Source: Oscillospiraceae bacterium (GTDB lineage Bacteria; Bacillota; Clostridia; Oscillospirales; Oscillospiraceae). From it: 32,200 bases of DNA. The stretch is taken from assembly GCA_017440065.1 (NCBI GenBank), contig JAFSHY010000050.1:1-32200 (forward strand), in the 5' to 3' direction. Of the stretch, positions 4,244 through 4,805 are shown piece after piece. Positions within the stretch are counted from its first letter, which is position 1. Each line of letters begins with the position of its first letter. Under the pieces are notes generated by a model. That model did not search any database. It had not been told where the DNA came from and saw only the letters and a list, made by a program, of their open reading frames with translations. Both the position numbers and the translations under genes were made by a program.

Positions 4244-4252
4244 GCCTTTTCC

Positions 4253-4286
4253 AAAAAATCCCCGATGGAATACCATCGGGGATTTT
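4253..4286 (-). terminator. Terminator of the GH25/RAYT unit
   Basis: A 14-bp stem, AAAATCCCCGATGG paired with CCATCGGGGATTTT, followed on the minus strand by a T run. It lies just past the stop codon of the transposase gene at 4290. Confidence 0.88.
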
Positions 4287-4289
4287 CTG

Positions 4290-4805
4290 CTACGATTCAA
4301 AATAACGGTCTGTTTCCCATGCGAACGGATTCTCCGCGATATACTTCATGATCTTTTGATAGTCTTCTTCTCCGCGAACGATATGATCATAATAGTTTCT
4401 CTGCCATACTGTTTCGTCACCATAGGTTTTCCGTATCGTTTTTGATGCGTTCATTTTGATGTATCCAACAACCTTTGATACAACAGACCTCCTATGTAGG
4501 GGCGATTCATGAATCGCCCGTTTCGGTTCGTTTGGGACGATCAGCATCATATGTACATGATTCGGCATGATCACATAATCAGCAACTTTTACATGCAGCC
4601 GTTCCGGTAAATGCTCTATGACATCCGCAACGATTTTTCCGCGTTCCGATAGGCACGTTTTGGGCGATTCGTGAATCGCCCCTACGATGTGGGATAACAT
4701 CATACGCTTTTCAAACGTACAAAACGTGATAAAGTATGCACCGGAACTGTTGTAATCGAATTTTTCAAGTCTTGTTGTTTTTCTTTGAGGCCGGTTATTT
4801 TCCAT
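4290..4805 (-). CDS. REP-associated tyrosine transposase (RAYT, Y1/IS200-like)
   Basis: The 171-residue protein is a single-domain HUH nuclease of the Y1 transposase family. The metal-binding HUH motif is His83-Val-His85 in MPNHVHMMLIV. The catalytic tyrosine is Tyr138 or Tyr139 in WQRNYYDHIVR. YFITFCTFEKR near the N-terminus and IAENP-W near the C-terminus are also family features. RAYTs are single-copy, domesticated relatives of IS200/IS605 transposases, thought to move or process short palindromic REP sequences. Two such palindromes lie inside this reading frame, each encoding AIHESP, at residues 43-48 and 97-102. The ribosome-binding site is weak and the start lies 9 bases after the GH25 stop, so translation may depend on the upstream gene. 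The frame is intact. Confidence 0.9.
   Translation of the reverse strand: MENNRPQRKTTRLEKFDYNSSGAYFITFCTFEKRMMLSHIVGAIHESPKTCLSERGKIVADVIEHLPERLHVKVADYVIMPNHVHMMLIVPNEPKRAIHESPLHRRSVVSKVVGYIKMNASKTIRKTYGDETVWQRNYYDHIVRGEEDYQKIMKYIAENPFAWETDRYFES
4496..4519. repeat. REP-like palindrome, copy A, inside the RAYT gene
   Basis: GGGCGATTCATGAATCGCCC at 4500-4519 is a perfect 20-bp palindrome, preceded by GTAG. On the minus strand it is read in frame as R-AIHESP. Confidence 0.9.
4662..4685. repeat. REP-like palindrome, copy B, inside the RAYT gene
   Basis: GGGCGATTCGTGAATCGCCC at 4662-4681 is the same palindrome with one central change, followed by CTAC. The flanking CTAC makes it an inverted copy of copy A, yet it again reads G-AIHESP in the same gene. 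Confidence 0.9.

Follow-up and report, generated by a model that had tools for sequence, protein, structure and literature searches.

Inside its own open reading frame (ORF), the RAYT gene described here carries two inverted copies of a REP, and the same two-site inverted layout, with different matching repeats, occurs in many gut clostridia. RAYTs are small bacterial DNA-processing enzymes thought to spread REP repeats. The comparisons made in this work suggest that the gene is probably a REPtron, the combination of a RAYT gene with its own REPs, that has taken its REPIN-like inverted REP pair into the transposase ORF, where the pair is kept as a linked substrate. What keeps RAYTs and REPs matched, and why RAYTs persist without any movement of their own, are open questions to which this finding is relevant. 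A RAYT family with its own current REP inside each gene would allow enzymes and substrates to be paired directly from sequence in dozens of natural examples, in some of which the four stem arms have changed together, and would be a clear case of DNA structure dictating the sequence of protein loops.

The RAYT gene and its internal repeats

The gene lies on the minus strand at 4290..4805 (read 4805-4290) of the window, i.e., of the whole 32,200-nt stretch of DNA that was analysed, and encodes an intact Y1 transposase of 171 aa plus stop. Its identification as a RAYT in the original prediction is borne out by profile, residues and fold. It matches PF01797 with 33.9 bits (cut-off 23) and the REP-associated tyrosine transposase model NF047646 with E 2e-19 and 69.8 bits, which is below the NCBIfam REP_Tyr_transpos cut-off of 80, this being the score threshold of one model and not a biological defining feature. 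The best PDB match of its AlphaFold (AF2) model (pLDDT 90) is 4er8, TnpA_REP with bound REP hairpin (TM about 0.6), IS200-type structures ranking shortly after. Both histidines of the HUH motif H83-V-H85 (4551..4559, minus strand), the catalytic Y155 and the third metal ligand N159 (4329..4343, minus strand) are invariant in an alignment of 48, and the latter two correspond, at a constant offset of 40, to Y115 and N119 of E. coli TnpA_REP (numbering in PMC6006769 and PMC8266576). With the same offset, the 4er8 alignment places W134, Q135, D140, H141 and R144 (4374..4406, minus strand) on E. coli W94, Q95, E100, H101 and R104, the region contacting GTAG (roles given in PMC6006769); W134, Q135 and R144 are present in at least 90% of relatives. 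Three features expected of a RAYT are found in this gene: HUH with a single catalytic tyrosine and asparagine ligand, WQ....(E/D)H..R, and the TnpA_REP fold. We also considered an IS200/IS605 insertion sequence, whose transposase would be expected in several near-identical copies, and rejected it, as the genome holds a single full-length match and its other two RAYTs are only ~40% identical. Directly 3′ of the stop codon there is a 17-bp terminator-like inverted repeat (4252..4289), which is without GTAG and is not a REP.

The two inverted 20-bp palindromes predicted within the gene were located at 4500-4519 and 4662-4681. Self-complementarity is perfect in the former (GGGCGATTCATGAATCGCCC), as had been claimed, but not in the latter (GGGCGATTCGTGAATCGCCC), which has one central difference, and the real unit is one of 24 nt with polarity, made of GTAG followed by GGGCGATTCRTGAATCGCCC (full element GTAGGGGCGATTCRTGAATCGCCC). 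Site 1, the first in gene order, is at 4662..4685 on the minus strand (GTAGGGGCGATTCACGAATCGCCC) and encodes VGAIHESP, residues 41-48; site 2 is in the opposite orientation at 4496..4519 (GTAGGGGCGATTCATGAATCGCCC on the plus strand), where the gene reads R-AIHESP-L at about residues 96-103. Since GTAG is on the plus strand at one copy (4496-4499) and on the minus strand at the other (4685-4682), its ends pointing outward, the two are true inverted repeats. That they occupy loops agrees with the structural model, in which site 1 forms the turn joining two short strands (38-41 and 49-52) and site 2 is in the coil of residues 91-107, which connects the HUH strand to helix 108-128. The idea that either orientation of the palindrome encodes AIHESP in the same frame stands for one codon phase only: elsewhere the translation is GRFMNRP or meets a stop, and in reverse the CACG copy encodes AIRESP.

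Between the REPs lies a spacer of 142 nt (4520..4661, minus strand), which encodes the portion of the catalytic core containing HUH. Folded single-stranded, the internal pair makes a long REPIN-type hairpin enclosing this spacer, with the REPs pairing mutually around it (single-strand fold z -3.5 as RNA and -4.05 as DNA). The number of such palindromes expected in the window by chance is 0.00. A search of Rfam gave nothing significant, and no near matches of the locus were found in plasmids.

Internal REP pairs among related RAYTs

The survey sample comprised 150 RAYT-relative loci, from the family of the window's genome and from named genomes, the latter searched with peptide patterns avoiding the inserts; the denominator is the 145 different ORFs among them in which HUH could be recognised. 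An internal GTAG or GTGG palindrome is present in 106 of these, and the 145 divide into 52 with an inverted pair, 20 with a single symmetric double-foot element (GTAG...CTAC) at site 2, 34 with another internal element and 39 with none, this last class being threshold-dependent, as the finder misses weak palindromes (e.g., L134 has none by a stricter finder and a pair by a looser one). Inverted pairs were found in Bacillota or the window's own family only, and double-foot elements in non-Bacillota phyla only. No comparable element appeared in any of 131 codon-shuffled RAYT ORFs. Most of the surveyed genomes are drafts, and pairs are also present in single-contig genomes (L040 and L142 in G098, L143 in G078).

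The two palindromes of a gene are of equal length in all 52 pairs, and the edit distance between REP copies averages 1.08 within genes vs 8.69 between genes (0 of 10000 permutations). Between near relatives, such as L036 and L049 or L032 and L133, one base-pair exchange recurs in each of the four stem arms, in a concerted and compensatory manner. The spacer has a median length of 142 nt across the 52 genes (120-163). The number of origins of the internal pair is uncertain, because the deep branches of the RAYT tree are weakly supported, and many of its forks are unresolved. As to the loops themselves, that at site 1 is just 1 aa long in L039, L043, L154 and L157, and those of L051, a member of the small tree group of the window gene, are of similar length without a palindrome. 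Two further ORFs depart from the common layouts: in L060 (SVGD01000004.1) the site 1 element is reversed and that of site 2 forward, so that its layout mirrors that of every other pair, and in L089 (Betaproteobacteria CG2_30_68_42) tandem 12-nt units containing GTAG stand within the ORF beside a double-foot palindrome.

The internal pair seems to substitute for the REPs that usually flank such genes. REPs within 300 nt of the gene accompany 7 of 48 pair-bearing genes, as opposed to 9 of 12 clostridial genes without an internal element (Fisher 1.1e-4); when all phyla are taken, the figure for genes lacking an internal element is 24 of 34. In L051 there is no internal REP, and GTAGGGGCGATTCACGAATCGCCC and its inverse, the GATTC REP identical to that of the window gene, are found just 3′ of the stop codon, separated by under 100 nt; one and the same REP pair can thus sit outside or inside the ORF.

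Level of constraint and competing explanations

Among the 52 pair genes, 95% of stem positions are paired, compared to the 50% expected under random synonymous codons, despite 40 and 45 distinct peptides at the two sites. The constraint is thus on the DNA and not on the peptide, as originally predicted, and conservation of AIHESP in RAYTs without the palindrome, named there as counter-evidence, is not what these genes display. Judged from the sequences, AIHESP itself is incidental, as other RAYTs have other palindromes and peptides at the same sites. The figures for pairing and peptides contradict a function of AIHESP-like peptides with the palindrome as a by-product, a reading that is very hard to believe. 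The near-constant V-G-x(n)-P encoded at site 1 and the frequent P-T end of site 2 might be read in that way, but V-G and P-T are the translations of GTAGG and CCTAC, the REPs of site 2 use several codon phases, and neither the diversity of peptides nor stem pairing so far above the synonymous expectation would be anticipated.

The stem mismatches bear on whether DNA or message is preserved. They are mostly at stem pair 7, with identical bases on the GTAG-bearing strand of both copies (G.T, G.A, A.G): in the 20-nt class G.T is found at both sites in 4 of 10 genes, and in the 22-nt class pair 7 is purine-purine. The stems of E. coli REPs also have a conserved irregularity, which is required there (PMC8266576). 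With site 2 in the opposite orientation, the mRNA at that site would read A.C, and not G.U, where the REP strand reads G.T; mismatches that are strand-specific at both sites therefore argue for preservation of the REP as DNA rather than as message hairpin, which points to the DNA REP as the entity being copied. The shared polarity of the mismatches could follow from DNA copying alone. Mismatches of this kind go against the suggestion of the original prediction that the transposase message is selected to carry the hairpins. Control at the mRNA level, in which internal hairpins would govern how well the RAYT message is translated or how stable it is, perhaps with the protein binding its own mRNA, would profit from the unusually good folding of the coding strand, in which the two copies pair, but given this polarity, and a closest relative without internal REPs (L051) whose pair is outside the ORF, we regard it as improbable.

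A better contender, albeit still an unlikely one, is pure tolerance, in which a cis-acting enzyme makes REPs jump most often near or into its own gene, only the in-frame insertions in two permissive loops survive, and the internal copies, functionless, would be kept alike by gene conversion with dispersed ones. Both sites are loops in the model, the phase that would place TAG in frame at site 1 is never used by the 52 genes, and other bacteria also have in-frame REPs in genes unrelated to RAYTs (PMC3733652, where Di Nocera et al. 2013 list GTAG REPs inside many genes), all of which such tolerance would explain; insertions that were tolerated repeatedly and then homogenised would account for a large part of the same observations. 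Random survivors, however, would not be expected to keep a set orientation and spacing throughout the 52 genes, with a matching partner at both sites, or to be nearly devoid of flanking REPs whenever the pair is internal.

For the REPtron with an internalised pair, the explanation we favour, we infer all functional steps. The RAYT would recognise GTAG plus hairpin on single-stranded DNA, so that the gene would constitute a permanent linked copy of its own substrate. Strand transfer directed by the REPs, or gene conversion involving dispersed copies, would keep the REPs in the ORF matched to the enzyme, as would selection for joint carriage of substrate and enzyme. The two loops would tolerate the peptides encoded by the REPs, and since GTAG must not contribute an in-frame TAG, the need to keep the frame open would filter the insertions that survive. 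That clostridial RAYTs form a class of self-contained REPtrons, in which the ORF must carry the REPIN-like pair cognate to the enzyme, is a possibility that we raise tentatively and with less conviction. If it were true, specificity and substrate would be inherited and changed together, and a requirement of the DNA would dictate two protein loops.

Earlier descriptions and REP families of the genome

In-frame REPs in tnpA_REP genes are already known in kind. The available part of Quentin et al. 2018 (PMC6006769) reports such insertions as a unique feature of subclass 2.4, as a rule located between HuH and Y, found chiefly in Cyanobacteria and Bacteroidetes and with flanking REPs also present, and describes ‘double foot’ GTAG...CTAC REPs. 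The genes of this work share with that subclass RAYT-type HUH/Y1 enzymes with REPs in frame inside the transposase gene (for the window gene the likeness is in this in-frame feature alone, and membership is not claimed), as well as double-foot REPs, here at site 2 of the 20 non-Bacillota genes. They differ, as far as that part of the source goes, in having two single-foot REPs, inverted, one before and one after HUH, in Bacillota, which co-vary and largely replace the flanking REPs. Relative to the same part of PMC6006769, in which we found no test against synonymous recoding, the clostridial two-site inverted layout around HUH, the co-variation and the loss of flanking REPs appear to be new, although partial overlap is possible.

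The E. coli REPtron resembles the window gene in its GTAG, palindrome, HUH-Y1 enzyme with matching residues, low-copy gene and dispersed cognate REPs, but its substrate REPs (REPs/BIMEs) flank the gene instead of lying inside the ORF. Similarly, the REPIN (the inverted REP doublet of Bertels and Rainey) also consists of two inverted GTAG-REPs pairing into a long hairpin, whereas here the spacer is coding sequence of the transposase core and the doublet is not dispersed as a unit. Rickettsia palindromic elements (RPEs) are likewise translated in frame inside proteins, but they are CGTC-tagged and found in unrelated genes without a known dedicated transposase (PMC3733652); we rejected RPE membership for the repeats of the window, which are tagged by GTAG and not CGTC, and lie inside the gene of their presumed own transposase.

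The palindrome is not confined to the gene, absence elsewhere in the genome being another outcome that the original prediction had named as speaking against it. Pattern searches gave about 14 copies of the GATTC REP with GTAG in the 1.93-Mb draft genome, including the two inside the RAYT, and these are dispersed, with GTAG at the 5′ foot of the palindrome as in other REPs, in a number that is modest for a REP family. Two further RAYTs of the genome have different GTAG palindromes inside the ORF at the same two sites: GGGCGATCATTGATCGCCC in RAYT C151, and GGTGCGGC...GACGCACC in RAYT C103, a pseudogene through a TAG not derived from the REP. The REP families of all three RAYTs are dispersed (GATTC 14, GATCA 10 and GGTGCG about 7 matches, RAYT copies included). 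Apart from homologous RAYT coding sequence, the inter-REP spacer was not found elsewhere in the genome; there is thus no second example of pair and spacer together, and the gene is at most a candidate donor of the dispersed REPs.

The single same-genus genome tried has 0 copies of the GATTC REP and no RAYT match either. G078, the complete 4.3 Mb genome of a relative, has 191 matches with up to 2 mismatches, and no RAYT carrying the GATTC REP was found in it; its GATTC REPs might represent a relic family, or might be cross-mobilised. On account of G078 and G036, we rejected the idea that each REP is strictly tied to one RAYT from genome to genome. In the genome of the window there is also a second repeat family, TGTCATTCTGAGCGNAGCGAAGAATC, with 28 copies at up to 3 mismatches (e.g., C151:4063-4088, C34:9263-9288, and on C55, C61 and C123), some of them tens of bases from a REP. 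In addition, REPs of different families adjoin there as mixed doublets or clusters, at C123:3064-3170, C77:4162-4380 and C34:9169-9243.
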